A stretch of 64,000 nucleotides of DNA from Notolepis coatsorum (taxonomy: Eukaryota; Chordata; Actinopteri; Aulopiformes; Paralepididae), in assembly GCA_963971535.1 (NCBI GenBank), contig CAXASK010002257.1, positions 62,001 to 126,000 on the forward strand. The letters run 5' to 3'. Every line of letters starts with the position of its first letter. The stretch's first letter is position 1. The position numbers and the translations under genes were made by a program. This document shows, one piece after another, positions 1 to 64,000 of this stretch. The notes under the pieces are model-generated. The model searched no databases. It was not told the origin of the DNA and saw only the letters and a list, made by a program, of their open reading frames with translations.

Positions 1-2340
1 ACTCTCTCTCACTCTTAATATCTCACTCTCTCTCACTCTTAATCTCTCACTCTTACTCTCTCACTCTCTCTCACTCTTACTCTCTCACGCTTACTCTCTC
101 ACTCTCTCTCTCACTCTTAATCTCTCACTCTCTCTCACTCTTAATATCTCACTCTCTCTCACTCTTAATCTCTCACTCTTACTCTCTCACTCTCTCTCAC
201 TCTTAATATCTCACTCTCTCTCACTCTTACTCTCTCACTCTCTCTCACTCTTAATTTCTCACTCTTACTCTCTCACTCTCTCTCACTCTTACTCTCTCAC
301 TCTTAATCTATCACTCTTACTCTCTTACTCTCTCTCACTCTTAATCTCTCACTCTTAATCTCTCACTCTCTCTCACTCTTAATCTCTCACTCTTACTCTC
401 TCACTCTCTCTCACTCTTAATATCTCACTATCTCTCACTCTTAATCTCTCACTCTTACTATCTCACTATTTCTCTCTCACTCTTAATATATCACTCTTAA
501 TCTCTCACTCTCTCTCACTCTTAATCTCTCACTCTTACACTCTCTCTCACTCTTAATCTCTCACTCTCTCTCACTCGTAATCTCTCACTCTTAATCTCTC
601 ACTCTCTCTCACTCTTAATCTCTCACTCTTACTCTCTCACTCTCTCTCACTCTTAATATCTCACTCTCTCTCACTCTTAATCTCTCACTCTTACTCTCTC
701 ACTCTCTCTCACTCTTACTCTCTCACGCTTACTCTCTCACTCTCTCTCTCACTCTTAATCTATCACTCTCTCTCACTCTTAATATCTCACTCTCTCTCAC
801 TCTTAATCTATCACTCTTACTCTCTTACTCTCTCTCACTCTTAATCTCTCACTCTCTCTCACTCTTAATATCTCACTCTATCTCACTCTTACTCTCTCTC
901 TCACTCTTAATATCTCACTATCTCTCACTCTTAATCTCTCACTCTTACTATCTCACTCTTTCTCTCTCACTCTTAATATCTCACTCTCTCACTCTTTCTC
1001 TCTCACTCTTACTATCTCACTCTCTCTCACTCTTAATCTCTCACTCTATCTCACTCTTAATCTCTCACTCTTAATCTCTCACTCTCTCTCACTCTTAATA
1101 TCTCACTCTTACTATCTCACTCTTAATATCTCACTCTCTCTCACTCTTACTCTCTCACTCTCTCTCACTCTTAATCACTCACTCTTACTCTCTCACTCTC
1201 TCGCACTCTTACTATCTCACTATCTCTCACTCTTAATCTATCACTCTTACTCTCTTACTCTCTATCACTCTTACTCTCTCACTCTCTCTCACTCTTACTC
1301 TCTCACTCTTAATCTCTCACTCTCTCTCACTCTTAATCTCTCACTCTTAATCTCTCACTCTCTCTCACTCTTACTCTCTCACTCTTACTCTCTCACTCTC
1401 TCTCACTCTTACTATCTCACTCTCTCTCACTCTCTCTCACTATTACTCTCTCACTCTTAATCTCTCACTCTCTCTCACTCTTAATCTCTCACTCTCTATC
1501 TCTCACTCTTAATCTCTCATTCTCTATCTCTCACTCTTACTCTCTCACTCTATCTCACTCTTACGCTCTCACTCTTACTATCTCACTCTCTCTCTCACTC
1601 TTAATATCTCACTCTTAATCTCTCACTCTCTCTCACTCTTAATCTCTCACTCTTACACTCTCTCACTCTTACGCTCTCACGCTTACTCTCTCACTCTCTC
1701 TCACTCTTAATATCTCACTCTTAATCTCTCACTCTCTCTCACTCTTAATCTCTCACTCTTACACTCTCTCACTCTTACTCTCTCACGCTTACTCTCTCAC
1801 TCTCTCTCACTCTTAATCTCTCACTCTCTCTCACTCGTAATCTCTCACTCTTAATATCTCACTCTCTCTCACTCTTAATCTCTCACTCTTACTCTCACTC
1901 TCTCTCACTCTTAATATCTCACTCTCTCTCACTCTTAATCTCTCACTCTTACTCTCTCACTCTCTCTCACTCTTACTCTCTCACGCTTACTCTCTCACTC
2001 TCTCTCTCACTCTTAATCTCTCACTCTCTCTCACTCTTAATATCTCACTCTCTCTCACTCTTAATCTCTCACTCTTACTCTCTCACTCTCTCTCACTCTT
2101 AATATCTCACTCTCTCTCACTCTTACTCTCTCACTCTCTCTCACTCTTAATTTCTCACTCTTACTCTCTCACTCTCTCTCACTCTTACTCTCTCACTCTT
2201 AATCTATCACTCTTACTCTCTTACTCTCTCTCACTCTTAATCTCTCACTCTTAATCTCTCACTCTCTCTCACTCTTAATCTCTCACTCTTACTCTCTCAC
2301 TCTCTCTCACTCTTAATATCTCACTCTCTCTCACTCTTAA
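1..2340 (+). repeat. Left domain, X-type satellite, first block
   Basis: This block is rich in X-type markers: CACGCTT (about 87, 725, 1679, 1787, 1983), TCGTAATC (about 575, 1835), TTAATTTC (251 and 2147, spaced 1,896 bp), CTCTTACTC and TCTTTCTCTC. Bases 1 to about 800 read the same as 9,431-10,230 in the lines compared (offset 9,430). At 801 this copy jumps ahead by 146 bp relative to that second copy. The CATTC variant at 1519 recurs near 11124, 12610 and 14106. The spacing of the two TTAATTTC sites suggests a local unit of about 1.9 kb. The block shows the same word set as the rest of the array but in an order closer to the 7.6-14.6 kb region than to the supra-units further right. Confidence 0.75.
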
Positions 2341-4140
2341 TCTCTCACTCTTAATCTCTCACTCTCTCTCACTCTTACTCTCTCACTCTTACTCTCTCAC
2401 TCTCTCTCACTCTTACTATCTCACTCTCTCTCACTCTTACTATCTCACTCTCTCTCACTCTTAATCTATCACTCTTACTCTCTCACTCTTACTCTCTCAC
2501 TCACTCTTACTCTCTCACTCTCTCTCACTCTTAATCTCTCACTCTCTCTCACTCTTAATCTCTCACTCTTACTCTCTCACGCTCTCTCACTCTTAATATC
2601 TCACTCTCTCTCACTCTTACTCTCTCACTCTCTTTCACTCTTAATCTCTCACTCTTACTCTCTCACTCTCTCTCACTCTTACTCTCTCACTCTCTCTCAC
2701 TCTTAATCTATCACTCTTACTCTCGCACTCTCTCTCACTCTTACTATCTCACTCTCTCTCACTCTTACTCTCTCACTCTCTCTAACTCTTAATCTCTCAC
2801 TCTTAATCTCTCACTCTCTCTCACTCTTAATCTCTCACTCTCTATCTCTCACTCTTACTCTCTCACTCTCTCTCACTCTTAATCTCTCACTCTTACTCTC
2901 TCTCACTCTTAATCTCTCATTCTTAATCTCTCACTCTCTCTCACTCTTAATATCTCACTCTTACTCTCTCACTCTCTCTCACTCTTAATCTCTCACTCTT
3001 ACTATCTCTCACTCTTACTCTCTCACTCTTACTCTCTAACTCTCTCTCACTCTTAATATCTCACTCTTACTCTCTCACTCTCCCTCACTCTTAATCTCTC
3101 ACTCTTACTCTCTCACTCTCTCTCACTCGTACTCTCTCACGCTTACTCTCTCACTCTCTCTCACTCTTACTATCTCACTCTCTCTCACTCTTAATCTCTC
3201 AATCTTACTCTCTCACTCTCTCTCACTCTTACTCTCTCACTCTCTCTCACTCTTACTCTCTCACTCTCTCTCACTCTTACTCTCTCACTCTCTCTCACTC
3301 TTAATCTCTCACTCTTAATCTCTCACTCTCTCTCACTCTTAATCTCTCACTCTCTATCTCTCACTCTTACGCTCTCACTCTCTCTCACTCTTAATCTATC
3401 ACTCTTACTCTCTCTCACTCTCTATCTCTCACTCGTACTCTCTCACTCTCTCTCACTCTTAATCTCTCACTCTCTCTCACTCTTACGCTCTCACTCTATC
3501 TCACTCTTACTATCTCACTCTCTCTCACTCTCTCTCACTCTCTCTCACTCTTACTCGCTCACTCGATCTCACTCTTACTATCTCACTCTCTCTCACTCTT
3601 ACTCGCTCACTCTATCTCACTCTTAATCTCTCACTCTTAATCTCTCACTCTCTCTCACTCTTAATCTCTCACTCTCTCTCACTCTTACGCTCTCACTCTA
3701 TCTCACTCTTACTATCTCACTCTCTCTCACTCTCTCTCACTCTTACTCTCTCACTCTCTCTCACTCTTAATCTATCACTCTCTCTCACTCTTAATCTCTC
3801 ACTCTTACTCTCTCACTCTCTCTCACTCTTAATCTATCACTCTTACTCTCTCTCACTCTTAATCTCTCACTCTTAATCTCTCACTCTCTCTCACTCTTAA
3901 TATCTCACTCTTACTCTCTCACTCTCTCTCACTCTTAATCTCTCACTCTTAATCTCTCACTCTCTCTCACTCTTACTCTCTCACTCTCTCTCACTCTTAA
4001 TCTATCACTCTTACTCTCTCACTCTTACTCTCTCACTCTATCTCACTCTTACTCTCTCACTCTCACTCTCTCTCACTCTTAATCTCTCACTCTCTCTCGC
4101 TCTTAATATCTCACTCTTACTCTCTCACTCTCTCTCACTC
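2341..4140 (+). repeat. A module, detached left copy
   Basis: This is a copy of the module that recurs inside each supra-unit of the right domain. Its ordered markers are CACGCTCTC at about 2580, TCTTTCAC near 2632, TCTAACTC near 2784, TCATTCTT at 2919, TCCCTC at 3081, TCAATCTT near 3200, TCGATC at 3563 and TCTCGCTCTT at about 4098. The same markers sit exactly 13,460 bp further on (16040, 16541, 17024, 17558), so the 1.8 kb has no net length difference from the first right-domain copy. The TCCCTC-to-TCGATC distance is 483 bp, as in the A modules of S1 and S2; later copies have 497 bp because of an extra 14-nt word before TCAATCTT. This copy therefore belongs to the S1/S2 lineage. Homology ends at about 4,140. 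Confidence 0.85.
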
Positions 4141-4858
4141 TTACTCTCTCACTCTCTCTCACTCTTAATCTCTCACTCTCTCTCACTCTTAATCTCTCAC
4201 TCTTACTCTCTCACTCTCTCTCACTCTTAATATCTCACTCTCTCTCACTCTTACTCTCTCACTCTCTCTCACTCTTACTCTCTCACTCTCTCTCACTCTT
4301 AATCTATCACTCTTACTATCTCACTCTCTCTCACTCTTACTCTCTCACTCTTACTCTCTCACTCTCTCTCACTCTTAATCTCTCACTCTCTCTCACTCTT
4401 ACTCTCTCACTCTTACTCTCTCACTCTCTCGCACTCTTAATCTCTCACTCTTACTCTCTCACTCTCTCTCACTCTTAATCTCTCACTCTCTCTCACTCGT
4501 AATCTCTCACTCTTAATCTCTCACTCTCTCTCACTCTTAATCTCTCACTCTTACTCTCTCACTCGTAATCTCTCACTCTTAATCTCTCACTCTCTCTCAC
4601 TCTTAATCTCTCACTCTTACTCTCTCACTCTCTCTCACTCTTAATATCTCACTCTCTCTCACTCTTAATCTCTCACTCTTACTCTCTCACTCTCTCGCAC
4701 TCTTACTCTCTCACGCTTACTCTCTCACTCTCTCTCACTCTTAATCTCTCACTCTCTCTCACTCTTAATATCTCACTCTTAATCTCTTACTCTCTCACTC
4801 TCTCTCACTCTTAATATCTCACTCTCTCTCACTCTTACTCTCTCACTCTCTCTCACTC
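4141..4858 (+). repeat. C segment, fragment of a supra-unit tail
   Basis: Bases 4141-4490 read the same as 26701-27050 (offset 22,560) in every line compared, including the TCTCGCACTCTTAATC variant at 4430 and 26990. The order fits the segment that follows the internal dimer in supra-unit S2. Thus the A module on its left and this segment on its right come from different parts of the supra-unit, joined at about 4,140. TCGTAATC occurs at about 4498 and 4564. Beyond 4,500 the order returns to X-type markers, including CACGCTT near 4705. Confidence 0.75.
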
Positions 4859-6766
4859 TTAATTTCTCACTCTTACTCTCTCACTCTCTCTCACTCTTAC
4901 TCTCTCAGTCTCTCACTCTTAATCTATCACTCTTACTCTCTTACTCTCTCTCACTCTTAATCTCTCACTCTTAATCTCTCACTCTTAATCTCTCACTCTT
5001 ACTCTCTCACTCTCTCTCACTCTTAATATCTCACTATCTCTCACTCTTAATCTATCACTCTTACTATCTCACTCTTTCTCTCTCACTCTTACTATCTCAC
5101 TCTTTCTCTCTCACTCTTACTATCTCACTCTCTCTCTCACTCTCTCTCACTCTTAATCTCTCACTCTTAATCTCTCACTATATCTCACTCTTAATCTCTC
5201 ACTCTATATCTCTCACTCTTACTCTCTCACTCTCTCTCACTCTTAATCTATCACTCTTACTCTCTCTCACTCTTAATCTCTCACTCTTAATCTCTCACTC
5301 TCTCTCACTCTTAATATCTCACTCTTAATCTCTCACTCTTACTCTCTCTCACTCTTACTCTCTCACTCTCTCACTCTTAATATCTCACTCTTACTCTCTC
5401 ACTCTCTCTCACTCTTAATCTCTCACTCTCTATATCTCACTCTTACTCTCTCACTCTCTCTCACTCTTAATCTATCACTCTTACTCTCTCTCACTCTTAA
5501 TCTCTCACTCTTAATCTCTCACTCTCTCACTCTTAATATCTCACTCTTACTATCTCACTCTCTCTCACTCGTAATCTCTCACTCTTACTCTCTCTCACTC
5601 TTACTCTCTCACTCTTACTCTCTCACTCTCTCTCACTCTTAATCTCTCACTCTTACTCTCACTCTCTCTCACTCTTACTCTCTCACGCTTACTCTCTCAC
5701 TCTCTCTCACTCTTAATCTCTCACTCTCTCTCACTCTTAATCTCTCACTCTTAATCTCTCACTCTCTCTCACTCTTAATCTCTCACTCTTACTCTCTCAC
5801 TCTCTCTCACTCTTAATTTCTCACTCTTACTCTCTCACTCTCTCTCACTCTTACTCTCTCAGTCTCTCACTCTTAATCTATCACTCTTACTCTCTTACTC
5901 TCTCTCACTCTTAATCTCTCACTCTTAATCTCTCACTCTTAATCTCTCACTCTTACTCTCTCACTCTCTCTCACTCTTAATATCTCACTATCTCTCACTC
6001 TTAATCTATCACTCTTACTATCTCACTCTTTCTCTCTCACTCTTACTATCTCACTCTTTCTCTCTCACTCTTACTATCTCACTCTCTCTCTCACTCTCTC
6101 TCACTCTTAATCTCTCACTCTTAATCTCTCACTATATCTCACTCTTAATCTCTCACTCTATATCTCTCACTCTTACTCTCTCACTCTCTCTCACTCTTAA
6201 TCTATCACTCTTACTCTCTCTCACTCTTAATCTCTCACTCTTAATCTCTCACTCTCTCTCACTCTTAATATCTCACTCTTAATCTCTCACTCTTACTCTC
6301 TCTCACTCTTACTCTCTCACTCTCTCACTCTTAATATCTCACTCTTACTCTCTCACTCTCTCTCACTCTTAATCTCTCACTCTCTATATCTCACTCTTAC
6401 TCTCTCACTCTCTCTCACTCTTAATCTATCACTCTTACTCTCTCTCACTCTTAATCTCTCACTCTTAATCTCTCACTCTCTCACTCTTAATATCTCACTC
6501 TTACTATCTCACTCTCTCTCACTCGTAATCTCTCACTCTTACTCTCTCTCACTCTTACTCTCTCACTCTTACTCTCTCACTCTCTCTCACTCTTAATCTC
6601 TCACTCTTACTCTCACTCTCTCTCACTCTTACTCTCTCACGCTTACTCTCTCACTCTCTCTCACTCTTAATCTCTCACTCTCTCTCACTCTTAATCTCTC
6701 ACTCTTAATCTCTCACTCTCTCTCACTCTTAATCTCTCACTCTTACTCTCTCACTCTCTCTCACTC
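4859..6766 (+). repeat. 954-bp tandem duplication (two copies)
   Basis: Copy one spans about 4859-5812 and copy two 5813-6766. The pair is marked by TCAGTC, the only AG dinucleotide seen on the + strand, at 4905 and 5859. Lines compared across the pair agree at a constant 954-bp offset, including paired TCTTTCTCTC stretches (near 5060 and 6014), TATATCTC, TCGTAATC (near 5572 and 6526) and CACGCTT (near 5685 and 6639). Identity runs slightly past the unit end, until copy two reads TTAATATATC at 6767 where copy one continues into TTAATTTCTC. The absence of a difference in sampled lines suggests a recent event. No coding potential. Confidence 0.88.
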
Positions 6767-7600
6767 TTAATATATCACTCTCTCTCACTCTTACTCTCTC
6801 ACTCTTAATCACTCACTCTTACTCTCTCACTCTCTCTCACTCTTACTCTCTCACTCTCTCTCACTCTTAATCTATCACTCTTACTCTCTTACTCTTAATA
6901 TCTCACTCTCTCTCACTCTTAATCTCTCACTCTTAATCTCTCACTCTCTCTCACTCTTACTCTCTCACTCTTACTCTCTCACTCTCTCTCACTCTTACTA
7001 TCTCACTCTCTCTCACTCTTACTATCTCACTCTATCTCACTCTTAATCTATCACTCTTACTCTCTCACTCTCTCTCACTCTTACTCTCTCTCACTCTTAC
7101 TCTCTCACTCTTAATCTCTCACTCTCTCTCACTCTTAATCTCTCACTCTTACTCTCTCACGCTCTCTCACTCTTAATATCTCACTCTCTCTCACTCTTAC
7201 TCTCTCACTCTCTTTCACTCTTAATCTCTCACTCTTACTCTCTCACTCTCTCTCACTCTTACTCTCTCACTCTCTCTCACTCTTAATCTATCACTCTTAC
7301 TCTCGCACTCTCTCTCACTCTTACTATCTCACTCTCTCTCACTCTTACTATCTCACTCTCTCTAACTCTTAATCTCTCACTCTTAATCTCTCACTCTCTC
7401 TCACTCTTAATCTCTCACTCTCTATCTCTCACTCTTACTCTCTCACTCTCTCTCACTCTTAATCTCTCACTCTTACTCTCTCTCACTCTTAATCTCTCAC
7501 TCTTAATCTCTCACTCTCTCTCACTCTTAATATCTCACTCTTACTATCTCACTCTCTCTCACTCTTAATCTCTCACTCTTACTATCTCTCACTCTTAATC
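6767..7600 (+). repeat. Truncated A module copy
   Basis: After a short X-type link, the stretch from about 6,920 to 7,597 matches 2,340-3,017 at an offset of 4,580-4,582 bp: CACGCTCTC at 7160, TCTTTCAC near 7211, TCTCGCAC near 7303 and TCTAACTC near 7364. At the place where other copies carry TCATTCTT (2919 here +4,580) this copy has the unmodified TCACTCTT, and no TCCCTC or TCGATC follows. It is cut off at about 7,597, where the order switches to TCTTAATCTATCAC and CTCTTACTC of the X type. Confidence 0.75.
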
Positions 7601-10318
7601 TATCACTCTTACTCTCTTACTCTCTATCACTCTTAATATATCACTCTTACTCTCTCACTCTTACTCTCTCACTCTTAATCTCTCACTCTCTCTCACTCTT
7701 AATCTCTCACTCTTAATCTCTCACTCTCTATCACTCTTACTCTCTCACTCTTACTATCTCACTCTCTCTCACTCTTACTATCTCACTCTCTCTCACTCTC
7801 TCACTATTACTCTCTCACTCTCTCTCACTCTTAATCTCTCACTCTTAATCTCTCACTCTCTCTCACTCTTAATATCTCACTCTCTATCTCTCACTCTCTC
7901 ACTTTCTCTCACTCTTACGCTCTCACTCTTACTCTCTCACTCTCTCTCTCACTCTTAATATCTCACTCTTAATCTCTCACTCTCTCTCACTCTTAATCTC
8001 TCACTCTTACACTCTCTCTCACTCTTAATCTCTCACTCTCTCTCACTCGTAATCTCTCACTCTTAATCTCTCACTCTCTCTCACTCTTAATCTCTCACTC
8101 TTACTCTCTCACTCTCTCACTCTTAATATCTCACTCTCTCTCACTCTTAATCTCTCACTCTTACTCTCTCACTCTCTCTCACTCTTACTCTCTCACGCTT
8201 ACTCTCTCACTCTCTCTCTCACTCTTAATCTATCACTCTCTCTCACTCTTAATATCTCACTCTCTCTCACTCTTAATCTCTCACTCTTACTCTCTCACTC
8301 TCTCTCACTCTTAATATCTCACTCTCTCTCACTCTTACTCTCTCACTCTCTCTCACTCTTAATTTCTCACTCTTACTCTCGCACTCTCTCTCACTCTTAC
8401 TCTCTCACTCTCTCACTCTTAATCTATCACTCTTACTCTCTTACTCTCTCTCACTCTTAATCTCTCACTCTTAATCTCTCACTCTCTCTCACTCTTAATA
8501 TCTCACTCTCTCTCACTCTTACTCTCTCACTCTCTCTCACTCTTAATATCTCACTACCTCTCACTCTTAATCTCTCACTCTTACTATCTCACTCTTTCTC
8601 TCTCACTCTTAATATCTCACTCTCTCACTCTTTCTCTCTCACTCTTACTATCTCACTCTCTCTCACTCTCTCTCACTCTTAATCTCTCACTCTCTCTCAC
8701 TCTTAATCTCTCACTCTTAATCTCTCACTCTCTCTCACTCTTAATATATCACTCTTACTATCTCACTCTTAATATCTCACTCTCTCTTACTCTCTCACTC
8801 TCTCTCACTCTTAATCACTCACTCTTACTCTCTCACTCTCTCGCACTCTTACTATCTCACTATCTCTCACTCTTAATCTATCACTCTTACTCTCTTACTC
8901 TCTATCACTCTTACTCTCTCACTCTCTCTCACTCTTACTCTCTCACTCTTAATCTCTCACTCTCTCTCACTCTTAATCTCTCACTCTTAATCTCTCACTC
9001 TCTCTCACTCTTACTCTCTCACTCTTACTCTCTCACTCTCTCTCACTCTTACTATCTCACTCTCTCTCACTCTCTCTCACTATTACTCTCTCACTCTTAA
9101 TCTCTCACTCTCTCTCACTCTTAATCTCTCACTCTCTATCTCTCACTCTTAATCTCTCACTCTCTATCTCTCACTCTTACTCTCTCACTCTATCTCACTC
9201 TTACGCTCTCACTCTTACTCTCTCACTCTCTCTCTCACTCTTAATATCTCACTCTTAATCTCTCACTCTCTCTCACTCTTAATCTCTCACTCTTACACTC
9301 TCTCACTCTTACTCTCTCACGCTTACTCTCTCACTCTCTCTCACTCTTAATCTCTCACTCTCTCTCACTCGTAATCTCTCACTCTTAATATCTCACTCTC
9401 TCTCACTCTTAATCTCTCACTCTTACTCTCACTCTCTCTCACTCTTAATATCTCACTCTCTCTCACTCTTAATCTCTCACTCTTACTCTCTCACTCTCTC
9501 TCACTCTTACTCTCTCACGCTTACTCTCTCACTCTCTCTCTCACTCTTAATCTCTCACTCTCTCTCACTCTTAATATCTCACTCTCTCTCACTCTTAATC
9601 TCTCACTCTTACTCTCTCACTCTCTCTCACTCTTAATATCTCACTCTCTCTCACTCTTACTCTCTCACTCTCTCTCACTCTTAATTTCTCACTCTTACTC
9701 TCTCACTCTCTCTCACTCTTACTCTCTCACTCTTAATCTATCACTCTTACTCTCTTACTCTCTCTCACTCTTAATCTCTCACTCTTAATCTCTCACTCTC
9801 TCTCACTCTTAATCTCTCACTCTTACTCTCTCACTCTCTCTCACTCTTAATATCTCACTATCTCTCACTCTTAATCTCTCACTCTTACTATCTCACTATT
9901 TCTCTCTCACTCTTAATATATCACTCTTAATCTCTCACTCTCTCTCACTCTTAATCTCTCACTCTTACACTCTCTCTCACTCTTAATCTCTCACTCTCTC
10001 TCACTCGTAATCTCTCACTCTTAATCTCTCACTCTCTCTCACTCTTAATCTCTCACTCTTACTCTCTCACTCTCTCTCACTCTTAATATCTCACTCTCTC
10101 TCACTCTTAATCTCTCACTCTTACTCTCTCACTCTCTCTCACTCTTACTCTCTCACGCTTACTCTCTCACTCTCTCTCTCACTCTTAATCTATCACTCTC
10201 TCTCACTCTTAATATCTCACTCTCTCTCACTCTTAATCTCTCACTCTTACTCTCTCACTCTCTCTCACTCTTAATATCTCACTCTCTCTCACTCTTACTC
10301 TCTCACTCTCTCTCACTC
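7601..10318 (+). repeat. Left domain, X-type satellite, second block
   Basis: This block repeats the X-type word order with TTAATTTC at 8359, 9681 and 10319 (spacings 1,322 and 638 bp), TCGTAATC at about 8048, 9369 and 10005, and CACGCTT near 8195, 9315, 9516 and 10154. Bases 9,431-10,230 are the second copy of bases 1-800. A private ACTACCTC string occurs near 8554. At about 9150 this copy has CACTCTCTATC where the copies near 1519, 11124, 12610 and 14106 have CATTCTCTATC, so the substitution spread to some units only. Unit lengths are irregular, which suggests several overlapping deletions and duplications. Confidence 0.7.
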
Positions 10319-11626
10319 TTAATTTCTCACTCTTACTCTCGCACTCTCTCTCACTCTTACTCTCTCACTCTCTCACTCTTAATCTATCACTCTTACTCTC
10401 TTACTCTCTCACTCTTAATCTCTCACTCTTAATCTCTCACTCTCTCTCACTCTTAATATCTCACTCTCTCTCACTCTTAATATCTCACTATCTCTCACTC
10501 TTAATATCTCACTATCTCTCACTCTTAATCTCTCACTCTTACTATCTCACTCTTTCTCTCTCACTCTTAATATCTCACTCTCTCACTCTTTCTCTCTCAC
10601 TCTTACTATCTCACTCTCTCTCACTCTCTCTCACTCTTAATCTCTCACTCTCTCTCACTCTTAATATCTCACTCTTAATCTCTCACTCTCTCTCACTCTT
10701 AATATCTCACTCTTACTATCTCACTCTTAATATCTCACTCTCTCTCACTCTTACTCTCTCACTCTCTCTCACTCTTAATCACTCACTCTTACTCTCTCAC
10801 TCTCTCGCACTCTTACTATCTCACTATCTCTCACTCTTAATCTATCACTCTTACTCTCTTACTCTCTATCACTCTTACTCTCTCACTCTCTCTCACTCTT
10901 ACTCTCTCACTCTTAATCTCTCACTCTCTCTCACTCTTAATCTCTCACTATTAATCTCTCACTCTCTCTCACTCTTACTCTCTCACTCTTACTCTCTCAC
11001 TCTCTCTCACTCTTACTATCTCACTCTCTCTCACTCTCTCTCACTATTACTCTCTCACTCTTAATCTCTCACTCTCTCTCTCACTCTTAATCTCTCACTC
11101 TCTATCTCTCACTCTTAATCTCTCATTCTCTATCTCTCACTCTTACTCTCTCACTCTATCTCACTCTTACGCTCTCACTCTTACTCTCTCACTCTCTCTC
11201 TCACTCTTAATATCTCACTCTTAATCTCTCACTCTCTCTCACTCTTAATCTCTCACTCTTACACTCTCTCACTCTTACTCTCTCACGCTTACTCTCTCAC
11301 TCTCTCTCACTCTTAATCTCTCACTCTCTCTCACTCGTAATCTCTCACTCTTAATATCTCACTCTCTCTCACTCTTAATCTCTCACTCTTACTCTCACTC
11401 TCTCTCACTCTTAATATCTCACTCTCTCTCACTCTTAATCTCTCACTCTTACTCTCTCACTCTTACTCTCTCACGCTTACTCTCTCACTCTCTCTCTCAC
11501 TCTTAATCGCTCACTCTCTCTCACTCTTAATATCTCACTCTCTCTCACTCTTAATCTCTCACTCTTACTCTCTCACTCTTAATATCTCACTCTCTCTCAC
11601 TCTTACTCTCTCACTCTCTCTCACTC
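10319..11626 (+). repeat. X unit of about 1.31 kb
   Basis: Bounded by TTAATTTC at 10319 and 11627. It carries TCATTCTC at 11124 and TCGTAATC at 11335. Relative to the two units that follow it is about 175 bp shorter by these anchors. The CATTC-to-CGTAA spacing (212 bp) equals that of the next two units, so the length difference lies elsewhere. It ends with the private TCTTAATCGCTCAC word near 11505. Confidence 0.7.
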
Positions 11627-49988: not shown

Positions 49989-52900
49989 AATTTCGCACTC
50001 TTACTCTCTCACTCTCTCTCACTCTTACTCTCTCACTCTCTCACTCTTAATCTATCACTCTTACTCTCTTACTCTCTCTCACTCTTAATCTCTCACTCTT
50101 AATCTCTCACTCTCTCTCACTCTTAATCTCTCACTCTTACTCTCTCACTCTCTCTCACTCTTAATCTCTCACTCTTACTATCTCACTCTTTCTCTCTCAC
50201 TCTTAATATATCACTCTCTCACTCTTTCTCTCTCACTCTTACTATCTCACTCTCTCTCACTCTTAATCTCTCACTCTTAATCTCTCACTCTATCTCACTC
50301 TTAATCTCTCACTCTATATCTCTCACTCTTACTCTCTCACTCTCTCTCACTCTTAATCTATCACTCTTACTCTCTCTCACTCTTAATCTCTCACTCTTAA
50401 TCTCTCACTCTCTCTCACTCTTAATATCTCACTCTTACTCTATCTCACTCTTAATCTCTCACTCTTACTCTCTCTCACTCTTACTCTCTCACTCTCTCAC
50501 TCTTAATATCTCACTCTTACTCTCTCACTCTCTCTCACTCTTAATCTCTCACTCTCTATCTCTCACTCTTACTCTCTCACTCTCTCTCACTCTTAATCTA
50601 TCACTCTTACTCTCTCTCACTCTTAATCTCTCACTCTTACTCTCTCACTCTCTCTCACTCTTAATCTATCACTCTTACTCTCTCTCACTCTTAATCTCTC
50701 ACTCTTAATCTCTCACTCTCTCACTCTTAATATCTCACTCTTACTATCTCACTCTCTCTCACTCTTACTCTCTCTCACTCTTACTCTCTCACTCTTACGA
50801 TCTCACTCTCTCTCACTCTTAATCTCTCACGCTTACTCTCACTCTCTCTCACTCTTAATCTCTCACTCTCTCTCACTCTTAATCTCTCACTCTTAATCTC
50901 TCACTCTCTCTCACTCTTAATCTCTCACTCTTACTCTCTCACTCTCTCTCACTCTTAATATATCACTCTCTCTCACTCTTACTCTCTCACTCTCTCTCAC
51001 TCTTAATCACTCACTCTTACTCTCTCACTCTCTCTCACTCTTACTCTCTCACTCTCTCTCACTCTTAATCTATCACTCTTACTCTCTTACTCTCTCTCAC
51101 TCTTAATCTATCACTCTTACTCTCTCACTCTCTCTCACTCTTACTCTCTCACTCTTAATATCTCACTCTCTCTCACTCTTAATCTCTCACTCTTAATCTC
51201 TCACTCTCTCTCACTCTTACTCTCTCACTCTTACTCTCTCACTCTCTCTCACTCTTACTATCTCACTCTCTCTCACTCTTACTATCTCACTCTCTCTCAC
51301 TCTTAATCTATCACTCTTACTCTCTCACTCTTACTCTCTCACTCTCTCTCACTCTTACTCTCTCACTCTCTCTCACTCTTAATCTCTCACTCTCTCTCAC
51401 TCTTAATCTCTCACTCTTACTCTCTCACGCTCTCTCACTCTTAATATCTCACTCTCTCTCACTCTTACTCTCTCACTCTCTTTCACTCTTAATCTCTCAC
51501 TCTTACTCTCTCACTCTCTCTCACTCTTACTCTCTCACTCTCTCTCACTCTTAATCTATCACTCTTACTCTCGCACTCTCTCTCACTCTTACTATCTCAC
51601 TCTCTCTCACTCTTACTCTCTCACTCTCTCTAACTCTTAATCTCTCACTCTTAATCTCTCACTCTCTCTCACTCTTAATCTCTCACTCTCTATCTCTCAC
51701 TCTTACTCTCTCACTCTCTCTCACTCTTAATCTCTCACTCTTACTCTCTCTCACTCTTAATCTCTCATTCTTAATCTCTCACTCTCTCTCACTCTTAATA
51801 TCTCACTCTTACTCTCTCACTCTCTCTCACTCTTAATCTCTCACTCTTACTATCTCTCACTCTTACTCTCTCACTCTTACTCTCTAACTCTCTCTCACTC
51901 TTAATATCTCACTCTTACTCTCTCACTCTCCCTCACTCTTAATCTCTCACTCTTACTCTCTCACTCTCTCTCACTCGTACTCTCTCACGCTTACTCTCTC
52001 ACTCTCTCTCACTCTTACTATCTCACTCTCTCTCACTCTTAATCTCTCACTCTTAATCTCTCAATCTTACTCTCTCACTCTCTCTCACTCTTACTCTCTC
52101 ACTCTCTCTCACTCTTACTCTCTCACTCTCTCTCACTCTTACTCTCTCACTCTCTCTCACTCTTAATCTCTCACTCTTAATCTCTCACTCTCTCTCACTC
52201 TTAATCTCTCACTCTCTATCTCTCACTCTTACGCTCTCACTCTCTCTCACTCTTAATCTATCACTCTTACTCTCTCTCACTCTCTATCTCTCACTCGTAC
52301 TCTCTCACTCTCTCTCACTCTTAATCTCTCACTCTCTCTCACTCTTACGCTCTCACTCTATCTCACTCTTACTATCTCACTCTCTCTCACTCTCTCTCAC
52401 TCTCTCTCACTCTTACTCGCTCACTCGATCTCACTCTTACTATCTCACTCTCTCTCACTCTTACTCGCTCACTCTATCTCACTCTTAATCTCTCACTCTT
52501 AATCTCTCACTCTCTCTCACTCTTACTCTCTCACTCTCTCTCACTCTTAATCTCTCACTCTCTCTCACTCTTAATCTCTCACTCTTACTCTCTCACTCTC
52601 TCTCACTCTTAATCTATCACTCTTACTCTCTCTCACTCTTAATCTCTCACTCTTAATCTCTCACTCTCTCTCACTCTTAATATCTCACTCTTACTCTCTC
52701 ACTCTCTCTCACTCTTAATCTCTCACTCTTAATCTCTCACTCTCTCTCACTCTTACTCTCTCACTCTCTCTCACTCTTAATCTATCACTCTTACTCTCTC
52801 ACTCTTACTCTCTCACTCTATCTCACTCTTACTCTCTCACTCTCACTCTCTCTCACTCTTAATCTCTCACTCTCTCTCGCTCTTAATATCTCACTCTTAC

Positions 52901-55180
52901 TCTCTCACTCTCTCTCACTCTTAATATCTCACTCGATCTCACTCTTACTCTCTCACTCTCTCTCACTCTTAATCTATCACTCTTACTCGCTCACTCTCTC
53001 TCACTCTTACTATCTCACTCTCTCTCACTCTCTCTCACTCTTACTCTCTCACTCTCTCTCACTCTTAATCTCTCACTCTTAATCTCTCACTCTCTCACTC
53101 TTAATCTATCACTCTCTATCTCTCACTCTTACTCTCTCACTCTCTCTCACTCTTACTCTCTCTCACTCTTAATCTATCACTCTTAATCGCTCACTCTCTC
53201 TCACTCTTAATATCTCACTCTTACTCTCTCACTCTTAATCTCTCACTCTTACTCTCTCACTCTCTCTCACTCTTAATCTCTCACTCTTTCTCACTCTTAC
53301 TATCTCACTCTTACTCTCTCTCTCACTCTTACTATCTCACTCTCTCTCACTCTCTCTCACTCTTAATCTCTCACTCTTAATCTCTCACTCTCTCTCACTC
53401 TTAATATCTCACTCTCTATATCTCACTCTTACTCTCTCACTCTCTCTCACTCTTAATCTATCACTCTTACTCTCTCTCACTCTTAATCTCTCACTCTTAA
53501 TCTCTCACTCTCTCTCACTCTTAATATCTCACTCTTACTATCTCACTCTCTCTCACTCTTAATCTCTCACTATTACTCTATCTCACTCTTACTCTCTCAC
53601 TCTTAATCTATCACTCTTACTCTCTCACTCTTACTCTCTCACTCTCTCTCACTCTTACTCTCTCACTCTCTCTCACTCTTAATCTCTCACTCTCTCTCAC
53701 TCTTAATCTCTCACTCTTACTCTCTCACTCTCTCTCACTCTTAATATCTCACTCTCTCTCACTCTTACTCTCTCACTCTCTCTCACTCTTACTCTCTCAC
53801 TCTCTCTCACTCTTAATCTATCACTCTTACTATCTCACTCTCTCTCACTCTTAATATCTCACTCTATCTCACTCTTACTCTCTCTCTCACTCTTAATATC
53901 TCACTATCTCTCACTCTTAATCTCTCACTCTTACTATCTCACTCTTTCTCTCTCACTCTTAATATCTCACTCTCTCACTCTTTCTCTCTCACTCTTACTA
54001 TCTCACTCTCTCTCACTCTTAATCTCTCACTCTATCTCACTCTTAATCTCTCACTCTTACTCTCTCACTCTCTCTCACTCTTAATCTCTCACTCTCTCTC
54101 ACTCTTAATCTCTCACTCTCTATCTCTCACTCTCTCACTCTTAATCTATCACTCTTACTCTCTCTCACTCTTAATCTCTCACTCTTAATCTCTCACTCTC
54201 TCTCACTCTTAATATCTCACTCTTACTCTCTCACTCTCTCTCACTCTTAATCTCTCACTCTCTCTCACTCTTAATCTATCACTCTTAATCTCTCACTCTC
54301 TCTCACTCTTAATCTCTCACTCTCTCTCACTCTTAATTTCTCACTCTTACTCTCGCACTCTCTCTCACTCTTACTCTCTCACTCTCTCACTCTTAATCTA
54401 TCACTCTTACTCTCTTACTCTCTCTCACTCTTAATCTCTCACTCTCTCTCACTCTTAATATCTCACTCTATCTCACTCTTACTCTCTCTCTCACTCTTAA
54501 TATCTCACTATCTCTCACTCTTAATCTCTCACTCTTACTATCTCACTCTTTCTCTCTCACTCTTAATATCTCACTCTCTCACTCTTTCTCTCTCACTCTT
54601 ACTATCTCACTCTCTCTCACTCTTAATCTCTCACTCTATCTCACTCTTAATCTCTCACTCTTAATCTCTCACTCTCTCTCACTCTTAATATCTCACTCTT
54701 ACTATCTCACTCTTAATATCTCACTCTCTCTCACTCTTACTCTCTCACTCTCTCTCACTCTTAATCACTCACTCTTACTCTCTCACTCTCTCGCACTCTT
54801 ACTATCTCACTATCTCTCACTCTTAATCTATCACTCTTACTCTCTTACTCTCTCTCACTCTTAATCTCTCACTCTTAATCTCTCACTCTCTCTCACTCTT
54901 AATCTCTCACTCTTACTCTCTCACTCTCTCTCACTCTTAATCTCTTACTCTCACTCTCTCTCACTCTTAATATCTCACTCTCTCTCACTCTTAATCTCTC
55001 ACTCTTACTCTCTCACGCTTACTCTCTCACTCTCTCTCTCACTCTTAATCTCTCACTCTCTCTCACTCTTAATATCTCACTCTCTCTCACTCTTAATCTC
55101 TCACTCTTACTCTCTCACTCTCTCTCACTCTTAATATCTCACTCTCTCTCACTCTTACTCTCTCACTCTCTCTCACTCTT
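49989..55180 (+). repeat. Supra-unit S6 (5,192 bp, shortest complete unit)
   Basis: AATTTCGC 49989, TTACGATC (50798), TCCCTC A (51929), TCGATC A (52425), CGCTC (52878), CTATTACTC (53568). It has only one TCCCTC. TCGATC to CGCTC is 452 bp instead of 534 bp, an 82-bp loss near 52,530 that removes the TTACGCTCTCAC stretch present in the other units. The X-type TCTTTCTCTC pair occurs twice, near 53,943 and 54,547 (604 bp apart), so the tail is partly duplicated while the B half is gone. A private ACTCGATC replaces ACTCTATC near 52,931. Confidence 0.82.
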
Positions 55181-55781
55181 AATTTCGCACTCTTACTCTC
55201 TCACTCTCTCTCACTCTTACTCTCTCACTCTCTCACTCTTAATCTATCACTCTTACTCTCTTACTCTCTCTCACTCTTAATCTCTCACTCTTAATCTCTC
55301 ACTCTCTCTCACTCTTAATCTCTCACTCTTACTCTCTCACTCTCTCTCACTCTTAATCTCTCACTCTTACTATCTCACTCTTTCTCTCTCACTCTTAATA
55401 TATCACTCTCTCACTCTTTCTCTCTCACTCTTACTATCTCACTCTCTCTCACTCTTAATCTCTCACTCTTAATCTCTCACTCTATCTCACTCTTAATCTC
55501 TCACTCTATATCTCTCACTCTTACTCTCTCACTCTCTCTCACTCTTAATCTATCACTCTTACTCTCTCTCACTCTTAATCTCTCACTCTTAATCTCTCAC
55601 TCTCTCTCACTCTTAATATCTCACTCTTACTCTATCTCACTCTTAATCTCTCACTCTTACTCTCTCTCACTCTTACTCTCTCACTCTCTCACTCTTAATA
55701 TCTCACTCTTACTCTCTCACTCTCTCTCACTCTTAATCTCTCACTCTCTATCTCTCACTCTTACTCTCTCACTCTCTCTCA

Positions 55782-56877
55782 CTCTTAATCTATCACTCTT
55801 ACTCTCTCTCACTCTTAATCTCTCACTCTTACTCTCTCACTCTCTCTCACTCTTAATCTATCACTCTTACTCTCTCTCACTCTTAATCTCTCACTCTTAA
55901 TCTCTCACTCTCTCACTCTTAATATCTCACTCTTACTATCTCACTCTCTCTCACTCTTACTCTCTCTCACTCTTACTCTCTCACTCTTACGATCTCACTC
56001 TCTCTCACTCTTAATCTCTCACGCTTACTCTCACTCTCTCTCACTCTTAATCTCTCACTCTCTCTCACTCTTAATCTCTCACTCTTAATCTCTCACTCTC
56101 TCTCACTCTTAATCTCTCACTCTTACTCTCTCACTCTCTCTCACTCTTAATATATCACTCTCTCTCACTCTTACTCTCTCACTCTCTCTCACTCTTAATC
56201 ACTCACTCTTACTCTCTCACTCTCTCTCACTCTTACTCTCTCACTCTCTCTCACTCTTAATCTATCACTCTTACTCTCTTACTCTCTCTCACTCTTAATC
56301 TATCACTCTTACTCTCTCACTCTCTCTCACTCTTAATCTATCACTCTTACTCTCTCTCACTCTTAATCTCTCACTCTTACTCTCTCACTCTCTCTCACTC
56401 TTAATCTATCACTCTTACTCTCTCTCACTCTTAATCTCTCACTCTTAATCTCTCACTCTCTCACTCTTAATATCTCACTCTTACTATCTCACTCTCTCTC
56501 ACTCTTACTCTCTCTCACTCTTACTCTCTCACTCTTACGATCTCACTCTCTCTCACTCTTAATCTCTCACGCTTACTCTCACTCTCTCTCACTCTTAATC
56601 TCTCACTCTCTCTCACTCTTAATCTCTCACTCTTAATCTCTCACTCTCTCTCACTCTTAATCTCTCACTCTTACTCTCTCACTCTCTCTCACTCTTAATA
56701 TATCACTCTCTCTCACTCTTACTCTCTCACTCTCTCTCACTCTTAATCACTCACTCTTACTCTCTCACTCTCTCTCACTCTTACTCTCTCACTCTCTCTC
56801 ACTCTTAATCTATCACTCTTACTCTCTTACTCTCTCTCACTCTTAATCTATCACTCTTACTCTCTCACTCTCTCTCA
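55782..56877 (+). repeat. 548-bp tandem duplication in S7
   Basis: The stretch with TTACGATC and TCTCACGCTTACTCTCAC is present twice: 55990 and 56538 for TTACGATC, and 56197 and 56745 for AATCACTC, all 548 bp apart. The join is near 56,330, where the order falls back from the position that S3 has near 29,360 to the position just before the first TTACGATC segment. The two partners share a stretch of about 38 bp around the join, enough for homologous unequal exchange. Confidence 0.82.
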
Positions 56878-57668
56878 CTCTTACTCTCTCACTCTTAATA
56901 TCTCACTCTCTCTCACTCTTAATCTCTCACTCTTAATCTCTCACTCTCTCTCACTCTTACTCTCTCACTCTTACTCTCTCACTCTCTCTCACTCTTACTA
57001 TCTCACTCTCTCTCACTCTTACTATCTCACTCTCTCTCACTCTTAATCTATCACTCTTACTCTCTCACTCTTACTCTCTCACTCTCTCTCACTCTTACTC
57101 TCTCACTCTCTCTCACTCTTAATCTCTCACTCTCTCTCACTCTTAATCTCTCACTCTTACTCTCTCACGCTCTCTCACTCTTAATATCTCACTCTCTCTC
57201 ACTCTTACTCTCTCACTCTCTTTCACTCTTAATCTCTCACTCTTACTCTCTCACTCTCTCTCACTCTTACTCTCTCACTCTCTCTCACTCTTAATCTATC
57301 ACTCTTACTCTCGCACTCTCTCTCACTCTTACTATCTCACTCTCTCTCACTCTTACTCTCTCACTCTCTCTAACTCTTAATCTCTCACTCTTAATCTCTC
57401 ACTCTCTCTCACTCTTAATCTCTCACTCTCTATCTCTCACTCTTACTCTCTCACTCTCTCTCACTCTTAATCTCTCACTCTTACTCTCTCTCACTCTTAA
57501 TCTCTCATTCTTAATCTCTCACTCTCTCTCACTCTTAATATCTCACTCTTACTCTCTCACTCTCTCTCACTCTTAATCTCTCACTCTTACTATCTCTCAC
57601 TCTTACTCTCTCACTCTTACTCTCTAACTCTCTCTCACTCTTAATATCTCACTCTTACTCTCTCACTC

Positions 57669-60082
57669 TCCCTCACTCTTAATCTCTCACTCTTACTCTC
57701 TCACTCTCTCTCACTCGTACTCTCTCACGCTTACTCTCTCACTCTCTCTCACTCTTACTATCTCACTCTCTCTCACTCTTAATCTCTCACTCTTAATCTC
57801 TCAATCTTACTCTCTCACTCTCTCTCACTCTTACTCTCTCACTCTCTCTCACTCTTACTCTCTCACTCTCTCTCACTCTTACTCTCTCACTCTCTCTCAC
57901 TCTTAATCTCTCACTCTTAATCTCTCACTCTCTCTCACTCTTAATCTCTCACTCTCTATCTCTCACTCTTACGCTCTCACTCTCTCTCACTCTTAATCTA
58001 TCACTCTTACTCTCTCTCACTCTCTATCTCTCACTCGTACTCTCTCACTCTCTCTCACTCTTAATCTCTCACTCTCTCTCACTCTTACGATCTCACTCTA
58101 TCTCACTCTTACTATCTCACTCTCTCTCACTCTCTCTCACTCTCTCTCACTCTTACTCGCTCACTCGATCTCACTCTTACTATCTCACTCTCTCTCACTC
58201 TTACTCGCTCACTCTATCTCACTCTTAATCTCTCACTCTTAATCTCTCACTCTCTCTCACTCTTAATCTCTCACTCTCTCTCACTCTTACGCTCTCACTC
58301 TATCTCACTCTTACTATCTCACTCTCTCTCACTCTCTCTCACTCTTACTCTCTCACTCTCTCTCACTCTTAATCTATCACTCTCTCTCACTCTTAATCTC
58401 TCACTCTTACTCTCTCACTCTCTCTCACTCTTAATCTATCACTCTTACTCTCTCTCACTCTTAATCTCTCACTCTTAATCTCTCACTCTCTCTCACTCTT
58501 AATATCTCACTCTTACTCTCTCACTCTCTCTCACTCTTAATCTCTCACTCTTAATCTCTCACTCTCTCTCACTCTTACTCTCTCACTCTCTCTCACTCTT
58601 AATCTATCACTCTTACTCTCTCACTCTTACTCTCTCACTCTATCTCACTCTTACTCTCTCACTCTCACTCTCTCTCACTCTTAATCTCTCACTCTCTCTC
58701 GCTCTTAATATCTCACTCTTACTCTCTCACTCTCTCTCACTCTTAATATCTCACTCTATCTCACTCTTACTCTCTCACTCTCTCTCACTCTTAATCTATC
58801 ACTCTTACTCGCTCACTCTCTCTCACTCTTACTATCTCACTCTCTCTCACTCTCTCTCACTCTTACTCTCTCACTCTCTCTCACTCTTAATCTCTCACTC
58901 TTAATCTCTCACTCTCTCACTCTTAATCTATCACTCTCTATCTCTCACTCTTACTCTCTCACTCTCTCTCACTCTTACTCTCTCTCACTCTTAATCTATC
59001 ACTCTTAATCGCTCACTCTCTCTCACTCTTAATATCTCACTCTTACTCTCTCACTCTTAATCTCTCACTCTTACTCTCTCACTCTCTCTCACTCTTAATC
59101 TCTCACTCTTTCTCACTCTTACTATCTCACTCTTACTCTCTCACTCTCTCTCACTCTTACTATCTCACTCTCTCTCACTCTCTCTCACTCTCTCTCACTC
59201 TTAATCTCTCACTCTTAATCTCTCACTCTCTCTCACTCTTAATATCTCACTCTCTATATCTCACTCTTACTCTCTCACTCTCTCTCACTCTTAATCTATC
59301 ACTCTCACTCTCTCTCACTCTTACTCTCTCACTCTCTCTCACTCTTAATCTCTCACTCTCTCTCACTCTTACTCTCTCACTCTTACTCTCTCACTCTCTC
59401 ACACTCTTAATCTCTCACTCTTACTCTCTCACTCTCTCTCACTCTTAATCTCTCACTCTCTCACTCTTAATATCTCACTCGCTCACTCTTAATCTCTCAC
59501 TCTTACTCTCTCACTCTCTCTCACTCTTAATCTCTCACTCTCTCTCACTCTTAATCTCTCACTCTCTATCTCTCACTCTCTCACTCTTAATCTATCACTC
59601 TTACTCTCTCTCACTCTTAATCTCTCACTCTTAATCTCTCACTCTCTCTCACTCTTAATATCTCACTCTTACTCTCTCACTCTCTCTCACTCTTAATCTC
59701 TCACTCTCTCTCACTCTTAATCTATCACTCTTAATCTCTCACTCTCTCTCACTCTTAATCTCTCACTCTCTATCTCTCACTCTTACTCTCTCACTCTCTC
59801 TCACTCTTAATCTATCACTCTTACTCTCTCTCACTCTTAATCTCTCACTCTATCTCACTCTTAATCTCTCACTCTCTCTCACTCTTAATCTCTCACTCTT
59901 AATCTCTCACTCTCTCTCACTCTTACTATCTCACTCTCTCTCACTCTTACTCTCTCACTCTCTCTAACTCTTAATATCTCACTCTTAATCTCTCTCTCAC
60001 TCTTAATCTCTCACTCTCTATCTCTCACTCTTACTCTCTCACTCTCTCTCACTCTTAATCTCTCACTCTTACTCTCTCACTC
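57669..60082 (+). repeat. Shortened internal A-to-B interval of S7 (2,414 bp)
   Basis: First to second TCCCTC of S7. It is 160 bp shorter than in S1-S4. The missing piece lies just before the second TCCCTC and includes the second TCTAACTC word pair that S3 has near 32,692. Confidence 0.8.
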
Positions 60083-62858
60083 TCCCTCACTCTTAATCTC
60101 TCACTCTTACTCTCTCACTCTCTCTCACTCGTACTCTCTCACGCTTACTCTCTCACTCTCTCTCACTCTTACTATCTCACTCTCTCTCACTCTTAATCTC
60201 TCACTCTTAATCTCTCAATCTTACTCTCTCACTCTCTCTCACTCTTACTCTCTCACTCTCTCTCACTCTTACTCTCTCACTCTCTCTCACTCTTACTCTC
60301 TCACTCTCTCTCACTCTTAATCTCTCACTCTTAATCTCTCACTCTCTCTCACTCTTAATCTCTCACTCTCTATCTCTCACTCTTACGCTCTCACTCTCTC
60401 TCACTCTTAATCTATCACTCTTACTCTCTCTCACTCTCTATCTCTCACTCGTACTCTCTCACTCTCTCTCACTCTTAATCTCTCACTCTCTCTCACTCTT
60501 ACGCTCTCACTCTATCTCACTCTTACTATCTCACTCTCTCTCACTCTCTCTCACTCTCTCTCACTCTTACTCGCTCACTCGATCTCACTCTTACTATCTC
60601 ACTCTCTCTCACTCTTACTCGCTCACTCTATCTCACTCTTAATCTCTCACTCTTAATCTCTCACTCTCTCTCACTCTTAATCTCTCACTCTCTCTCACTC
60701 TTACGCTCTCACTCTATCTCACTCTTACTATCTCACTCTCTCTCACTCTCTCTCACTCTTACTCTCTCACTCTCTCTCACTCTTAATCTCTCACTCTCTC
60801 TCACTCTTAATCTCTCACTCTTACTCTCTCACTCTCTCTCACTCTTAATCTATCACTCTTACTCTCTCACTCTTAATCTCTCACTCTTAATCTCTCACTC
60901 TCTCTCACTCTTAATCTCTCACTCTTACTCTCTCACTCTCTCTCACTCTTAATCTCTCACTCTTAATCTCTCACTCTCTCTCACTCTTACTCTCTCACTC
61001 TCTCTCACTCTTAATCTATCACTCTTACTCTCTCACTCTTACTCTCTCACTCTATCTCACTCTTACTCTCTCACTCTCACTCTCTCTCACTCTTAATCTC
61101 TCACTCTCTCTCGCTCTTAATATCTCACTCTTACTCTCTCACTCTCTCTCACTCTTAATATCTCACTCTATCTCACTCTTACTCTCTCACTCTCTCTCAC
61201 TCTTAATCTATCACTCTTACTCGCTCACTCTCTCTCACTCTTACTATCTCACTCTCTCTCACTCTCTCTCACTCTTACTCTCTCACTCTCTCTCACTCTT
61301 AATCTCTCACTCTTAATCTCTCACTCTCTCACTCTTAATCTATCACTCTCTATCTCTCACTCTTACTCTCTCACTCTCTCTCACTCTTACTCTCTCTCAC
61401 TCTTAATCTATCACTCTTAATCGCTCACTCTCTCTCACTCTTAATATCTCACTCTTACTCTCTCACTCTTAATCTCTCACTCTTACTCTCTCACTCTTAA
61501 TCTCTCACTCTTTCTCACTCTTACTATCTCACTCTTACTCTCTCACTCTCTCTCACTCTTACTATCTCACTCTCTCTCACTCTTAATCTCTCACTCTTAA
61601 TCTCTCACTCTCTCTCACTCTTAATATCTCACTCTCTATATCTCACTCTTACTCTCTCACTCTCTCTCACTCTTAATCTATCACTCTTACTCTCTCTCAC
61701 TCTTAATCTCTCACTCTTAATCTCTCACTCTCTCTCACTCTTAATATCTCACTCTTACTATCTCACTCTCTCTCACTCTTAATCTCTCACTATTACTCTA
61801 TCTCACTCTTACTCTCTCACTCTTAATCTATCACTCTTACTCTCTCACTCTTACTCTCTCACTCTCTCTCACTCTTACTCTCTCACTCTCTCTCACTCTT
61901 AATCTCTCACTCTCTCTCACTCTTAATCTCTCACTCTTACTCTCTCACTCTCTCTCACTCTTAATATCTCACTCTCTCTCACTCTTACTCTCTCACTCTC
62001 TCTCACTCTTACTCTCTCACTCTCTCTCACTCTTAATCTATCACTCTTACTATCTCACTCTCTCTCACTCTTACTCTCTCACTCTTACTCTCTCACTCTC
62101 TCTCACTCTTAATCTCTCACTCTCTCTCACTCTTACTCTCTCACTCTTACTCTCTCACTCTCTCGCACTCTTAATCTCTCACTCTTACTCTCTCACTCTC
62201 TCTCACTCTTAATCTCTCACTCTCTCACTCTTAATATCTCACTCGCTCACTCTTAATCTCTCACTCTTACTCTCTCACTCTCTCTCACTCTTAATCTCTC
62301 ACTCTCTCTCACTCTTAATCTCTCACTCTCTATCTCTCACTCTCTCACTCTTAATCTATCACTCTTACTCTCTCTCACTCTTAATCTCTCACTCTTAATC
62401 TCTCACTCTCTCTCACTCTTAATATCTCACTCTTACTCTCTCACTCTCTCTCACTCTTAATCTCTCACTCTCTCTCACTCTTAATCTATCACTCTTAATC
62501 TCTCACTCTCTCTCACTCTTAATCTCTCACTCTCTCTCACTCTTAATTTCTCACTCTTACTCTCGCACTCTCTCTCACTCTTACTCTCTCACTCTCTCAC
62601 TCTTAATCTATCACTCTTACTCTCTTACTCTCTCTCACTCTTAATCTCTCACTCTCTCTCACTCTTAATATCTCACTCTATCTCACTCTTACTCTCTCTC
62701 TCACTCTTAATATCTCACTATCTCTCACTCTTAATCTCTCACTCTTACTATCTCACTATTTCTCTCTCACTCTTAATATCTCACTCTCTCACTCTTTCTC
62801 TCTCACTCTTACTATCTCACTCTCTCTCACTCTTACTCTCTCACTCTCTCTCACTCTT

Positions 62859-64000
62859 AATTTCGCACTCTTACTCTCTCACTCTCTCTCACTCTTACTC
62901 TCTCACTCTCTCACTCTTAATCTATCACTCTTACTCTCTTACTCTCTCTCACTCTTAATCTCTCACTCTTAATCTCTCACTCTCTCTCACTCTTAATCTC
63001 TCACTCTTACTCTCTCACTCTCTCTCACTCTTAATCTCTCACTCTTACTATCTCACTCTTTCTCTCTCACTCTTAATATATCACTCTCTCACTCTTTCTC
63101 TCTCACTCTTACTATCTCACTCTCTCTCACTCTTAATCTCTCACTCTTAATCTCTCACTCTATCTCACTCTTAATCTCTCACTCTATATCTCTCACTCTT
63201 ACTCTCTCACTCTCTCTCACTCTTAATCTATCACTCTTACTCTCTCTCACTCTTAATCTCTCACTCTTAATCTCTCACTCTCTCTCACTCTTAATATCTC
63301 ACTCTTACTCTATCTCACTCTTAATCTCTCACTCTTACTCTCTCTCACTCTTACTCTCTCACTCTCTCACTCTTAATATCTCACTCTTACTCTCTCACTC
63401 TCTCTCACTCTTAATCTCTCACTCTCTATCTCTCACTCTTACTCTCTCACTCTCTCTCACTCTTAATCTATCACTCTTACTCTCTCTCACTCTTAATCTC
63501 TCACTCTTACTCTCTCACTCTCTATCACTCTTAATCTATCACTCTTACTCTCTCTCACTCTTAATCTCTCACTCTTAATCTCTCACTCTCTCACTCTTAA
63601 TATCTCACTCTTACTATCTCACTCTCTCTCACTCTTACTCTCTCTCACTCTTACTCTCTCACTCTTACGATCTCACTCTCTCTCACTCTTAATCTCTCAC
63701 GCTTACTCTCACTCTCTCTCACTCTTAATCTCTCACTCTCTCTCACTCTTAATCTCTCACTCTTAATCTCTCACTCTCTCTCACTCTTAATCTCTCACTC
63801 TTACTCTCTCACTCTCTCTCACTCTTAATATATCACTCTCTCTCACTCTTACTCTCTCACTCTCTCTCACTCTTAATCACTCACTCTTACTCTCTCACTC
63901 TCTCTCACTCTTACTCTCTCACTCTCTCTCACTCTTAATCTATCACTCTTACTCTCTTACTCTCTCTCACTCTTAATCTATCACTCTTACTCTCTCACTC
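62859..64000 (+). repeat. Supra-unit S8, cut by the window end
   Basis: AATTTCGC 62859, TCTCTATCAC near 63522 and TTACGATC 63668 (809 bp in). It corresponds to 35,513-36,654 of S4 at an offset of 27,346 bp, including the TCTCTATCAC change otherwise seen at this place only in S4. By the constant 1,131-bp spacing its TCCCTC would lie near 64,799, outside the window. Confidence 0.85.

Follow-up and report, generated by a model that had tools for sequence, protein, structure and literature searches.

Imperfect dinucleotide microsatellites, and the satellites derived from them, have a dinucleotide rhythm and slip in two-base steps. Human satellite 1A (HSat1A/SAR) is described, in the accessible part of its source, as a 42-bp AT-rich repeat in which A units of 17 bp alternate with B units of 25 bp (PMC9909926). 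CUS-TR24 of Cuscuta europaea is a satellite associated with simple repeats; its monomer is given as 389 bp in the accessible part of the source (PMC8091179), which rules it out as a 24-bp relative; its name alone had suggested it as a candidate.

The window (the whole stretch of DNA analysed, 64,000 bases) corresponds to C1831:62001-126000. C1831 is an unplaced contig of 237,118 bp in a genome of 3,421,551,600 bases and 4,787 contigs, by its size that of a eukaryote. The contig consists entirely of one array in a single register, and both of its ends lie inside that array.

1..64000, + strand: TC-framed satellite array of 10-base (ACTCTCTCTC) and 14-base (ACTCTTAATCTCTC / ACTCTTACTCTCTC) units, with the register unbroken to both ends of C1831

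Splitting at AC yields 54 token types for the window. The contig has 56, all of even length. Four tokens (ACTCTCTCTC, ACTCTT, ACTCTCTC and ACTCTTAATCTCTC) make up 73% of all tokens. They are interpreted as two units, A of 10 bases and B of 14 bases, with B present as ACTCTTAATCTCTC (3,526 tokens) or as ACTCTTACTCTCTC (2,916 adjacent pairs). The periods of 14, 24 and 38 reported by TRF are read as B, A+B and A+B+B, respectively. As in a satellite, short units form a long head-to-tail array and copies are homogenised over kilobases, although an assembly artefact may inflate the latter property. The array is not the uninterrupted dinucleotide run of a pure (TC)n microsatellite, being interrupted by AC, TT, AA and TA, and with units of 10 and 14 bases and a G+C content of 41% it does not have the 17- and 25-bp AT-rich A and B units of HSat1A.

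Read from base 1 in steps of two, the window resolves into eleven dinucleotide types (TC 19119, AC 6556, TT 3212, AA 1648, TA 1155, GC 218, GT 39, GA 25, CC 14, AT 12, AG 2), which account for 32,000 of its 32,000 dinucleotides. This is the set named in the earlier note, which had described an unbroken two-base frame. Only 14 of the 25,921 C in the window stand at odd coordinates, every one within CC, and in the 50 bases downstream of each of them all C are again at even coordinates.

3083..60086, + strand: 14 odd-coordinate C (CC dinucleotides), at 3083, 8557, 16543, 19117, 22637, 25211, 30165, 32739, 37455, 40029, 45293, 51931, 57671 and 60085

Thirteen of these share one context and the C at 8557 has a second. 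The whole contig has 49 odd-coordinate C, which collapse to two contexts and are again all CC; a C at an odd start other than in CC is found neither in the window nor in the contig. None of the 1,067 sixty-base lines of the window starts with C, and the only ten-base groups that do (25211, 51931 and 57671) are each CC, both as previously noted. The even marker spacings reported earlier hold generally: successive spacings of identical 100-mers include no odd value among 50,151 in the window or among 221,328 in the contig. The contig contains no 40-base stretch with most C in the opposite phase, and a phase HMM assigns all 237,118 bp, neighbouring sequence included, to a single segment in one register. 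Neither a lasting one-base move of the frame nor an odd indel between copies was found in the contig or in the seven aligned copies considered below. An unbroken two-base register over the window and the whole contig is therefore confirmed. Spacing is preserved modulo 2 and not modulo 3 or 4, so that a fixed codon frame is absent.

An RNA or coding explanation was rejected, given this lack of spacing modulo 3 and given that window 1-10000 has no Rfam hit reaching the gathering score. A prokaryote, phage, plasmid or viral source was also rejected, as the probes used gave no match: a 48-mer had 0 exact matches in genome_contigs, a 28-mer had 0 in viral_contigs, and megablast of window 1-3000 against plasmids and phages found none. 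In the literature, one of two 12-base fragments occurs in 2 papers, which are probably unrelated.

The weight of the pattern is smaller than 64 kb implies, because the window is mostly repeated sequence.

1..56335, + strand: share of the window in a repeat of 87,940 bases within C1831, whose two copies (C1831:30396-118335 and 144428-232367) are identical letter for letter at a distance of 114,032

By this repeat alone, 56,335 of the 64,000 window bases recur exactly elsewhere in C1831, 114,032 bases downstream. It represents either a very recent duplication or an assembly artefact or loop. A second exact copy comprises 18,339 bases at a distance of 28,130. The window has 13,750 distinct 100-mers among 63,901 and the contig 15,691. 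Greedy parsing of the 237,118-base contig into exact earlier matches of at least 100 bases gave 117 matches, 0 of them at odd distances, and left 7,974 literal bases. The 1,082 G letters of the contig reduce to 23 distinct contexts at ±10 bases (22 for the T slot and 1 for the C slot), or to 40 at ±20. The contig thus holds about 8-16 kb of distinct sequence. As it consists nearly entirely of copies, its 237-kb frame is largely one short frame repeatedly copied, so the earlier argument, in which random indels should have disrupted such a frame repeatedly, is not established.

In C1831, G in the T slot occurs in 22 distinct contexts versus 2 for C in the T slot, and in the sister arrays (see below) the ratio is 53 to 22, whereas transitions are usually the commoner class. 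Every one of the 282 T-slot G in the window is preceded by C, forming CpG.

The exact repeats raise the question of whether the length of the register and the extreme identity of copies are partly a product of assembly, through a path walked repeatedly or through consensus smoothing that erased rare variants. The chance of this is put at somewhat less than even, and it would be compatible with the explanation preferred below. Besides the two long exact copies, it is favoured by the start and end of C1831 within the array and by the end of a placed relative on C6 at a 200-N gap. Against it stand observations that are independent of the duplicated path, namely the five C7 array segments described below, which are fully in phase, and a series of non-identical copies within the contig.

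16364..64000, + strand: seven successive irregular higher-order copies (C1831 78364 to 126621) with lengths of 6094, 7528, 7290, 7838, 6638, 5740 and 7130, the last extending 621 bases beyond the window

The 21 pairwise alignments of these copies comprise 130,158 aligned bases with 466 mismatches and 361 gaps, 0 of them odd; the pairs are non-independent, and a number of the alignments appear forced, as in a pair with 87 mismatches and 60 gaps. The two most similar copies align over 7,130 bases and show 0 mismatches and a single 160-base gap. In a De Bruijn graph (k=80), a small sample of 10 simple bubbles was found, 2 of equal length, 8 with an even difference and 0 with an odd one. Simple bubbles are probably few since mosaic joins make up most differences between copies.

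Gaps of 2, 4, 6 and 8 bases are common between the seven copies (106 of 361), as would be expected had two-base slippage alone made the array as a degenerate TC microsatellite. Such an origin is very unlikely, because long exact copies at irregular kilobase spacings account for most of the sequence and, unless they are assembly artefacts, require segment duplication or exchange.

In a 20-kb sample (C1831:30001-50000), the share of identical k-mer pairs up to 400 bases apart that lie at an odd offset falls from 13.8% at k=1 to 1.0% at k=2 and 0.007% at k=3. It is 0 of 744,265 pairs at k=4 and also 0 for k=5-10. Slippage, annealing or exchange guided by at least four matching bases is therefore even. 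Together with the even-only gaps of the seven copies, this supports the mechanism put forward in the earlier note, slippage combined with in-register exchange. Homopolymer slippage is the main source of one-base indels; in the window, homopolymers reach 3 bases at most.

Sister arrays in the same genome served as an internal control. A 30-base probe matched at least 1,519 places in the genome, 1,266 in C1831 and 253 elsewhere among the matches listed. The set covered comprises 11 loci on C1, C4, C6 and C7, with 16 array segments longer than 400 bases and 33,637 bases in all; other arrays, e.g. at C6:119.16 Mb and C7:4.41 Mb and on C30 and C1369, fall outside it. Only direct phase changes were counted as shifts, changes across foreign interrupting sequence being excluded. 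The first seven loci contain 12 shifts in 24,291 array bases. Two are isolated in the assembly sequence: at C6:101,223,817 the shifted frame persists for 2,067 bases, and at C4:127,243,345 for only 83 bases, until the end of the array. Of the remaining ten, nine belong to the C6:111 array, with one at its diverged edge and eight clustered in its interior, and the tenth lies in a pure TC run past that array. No phase shift was seen in the five C7 array segments. The extra-A form at the C6:101 shift occurs, with its 23-base context, once genome-wide, and the missing-A form within the C6:111 cluster occurs, with its 21-base context, also once. Odd indels are thus not absent wherever the family occurs. 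C1831 itself shows 0 odd events; the family, with its isolated one-base shifts on C6 and C4, does not change exclusively in twos.

The sister arrays also supply a yardstick for the contig. Against 87 distinct G variants they have 2-3 odd events. The count of 87 is unmerged across arrays, and merging shared variants would make it smaller and the expectation larger; the contig has 22-40 such variants. On this scaling the contig should contain 0.5-1.4 odd events, compared with the 0 observed (P(0) 0.25-0.60). If the C6:111 cluster is counted as real, the expectation becomes 2.8-5.1, with P(0) of 0.06-0.006 and Fisher values of 0.21-0.03.

Further features of the sister arrays were recorded. In L039 and L040 (C7:208.86-208.87 Mb), G stands mainly in the C slot, with 12 and 11 distinct contexts versus 2 each for the T slot; these arrays are perhaps a distinct sub-family. 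L023 (C6:101.22 Mb) adjoins other short repeats that are CTGTCTCACTGCACAC-like, and the edge of the C6:111 array adjoins GGGTTAACCCTTTCACTGCC-like short repeats via transitional units such as TTAATGTCTCAC. Such adjoining short repeats are a possible origin of the satellite.

A placed relative of C1831 is the L027/L028 array at C6:111,115,138-111,127,122. Of its 100-mers, 66% are common to C1831, compared with at most 3.2% for the other ten loci. It terminates at the 200-N gap mentioned above (C6:111,114,938-111,115,137). Judging from the shared 100-mers and the gap, the home of C1831 is probably the gap beside this array, and the array may help to identify the sequence missing there on the chromosome-scale contig C6. 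A 7.8-kb part of the copy at C6:111.12 Mb was aligned with C1831:5294-13819 over 7,721 bases, giving 20 gaps of even length and 7 substitutions, besides 10 one-base gaps that are all confined to 671 bases (L028, C6:111,121,735-111,122,405). Because the rest of the alignment is without one-base gaps, this cluster is read as probable uncorrected consensus errors in an unpolished stretch.

Chance alone was also considered with a toy growth model that had a 2-kb founder and no slippage, run 150 times per setting with odd-indel ratios from 0.05 to 0.2; a literature search found no published indel ratios. At an assumed ratio of 0.1, the simulated probability of no odd indel was 0.65, 0.19 and 0.00 at means of ~4, 17 and 51 substitutions. 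The 13,750 distinct 100-mers of the window were reached only between ~50 and ~170 substitutions, where the probability was 0.00-0.09 over three ratios. As modelled, this points against an easy chance explanation of the frame. The simulation probably overstates the substitutions required, because it includes neither even slippage nor mosaic exchange, both of which are sources of distinct 100-mers. The number of independent substitutions in the array is uncertain. The sister arrays are taken as a better yardstick than the crude simulation.

The earlier note had offered, as a speculative alternative, that the frame itself is under constraint, which would mean that selection, repair or a reading process maintains it. 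This is highly improbable, even though 237 kb contain zero odd indels, the placed C6 copy outside the 671-base stretch shows 19 even length differences and 0 odd ones, and the simulation at matching diversity was seldom without odd indels. The isolated one-base shifts of the sister arrays speak against such a constraint, as do copy gaps of up to 2,570 bases and spacing that is not preserved modulo 3 or 4. Sequence homology alone yields even-only change, so the constraint is unnecessary, and no positive evidence for it was found. It is very unlikely, too, that the satellite resists odd-length change beyond homology-guided joining, for example through repair bias or selection against out-of-register TC/GA pairing. 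A mild deficit of odd indels may nevertheless exist.

The window is best explained, with a probability of roughly 0.8, as an internal part of a satellite that is young and strongly homogenised and whose frame is ordinary and results from phase-specific letters and copying. The array would have grown from a short in-phase founder, composed of TC-rich units of 10 and 14 bases, through segment duplication, unequal exchange and slippage. With a two-base rhythm and phase-specific letters, events guided by about four or more homologous bases would join in phase and change the length by even numbers. The phase would then be breakable solely by point indels, which act without homology guidance. These may be rare here, given the lack of long homopolymers and a presumably small mutational depth, and any that arose would be copied or lost together with whole segments. 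The pattern is most likely not evidence of a hidden code. Phase-specific letters that make homology-guided rearrangement even can give a perfect frame over hundreds of kilobases without constraint, and such patterns are to be weighed by independent sequence and not by array length.

Among known systems, imperfect dinucleotide microsatellites resemble this array in dinucleotide rhythm and two-base slippage, but the present array is broken by A and TT every 10 or 14 bases and was amplified as kilobase blocks. HSat1A, as far as the accessible part of its source describes it, resembles the array in that both have two short unit types per array, which build longer higher-order repeats (PMC9909926). 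Compared by description and not by alignment, the two differ in their units, which are 42-bp and AT-rich in HSat1A and 10- and 14-base and TC-rich here.
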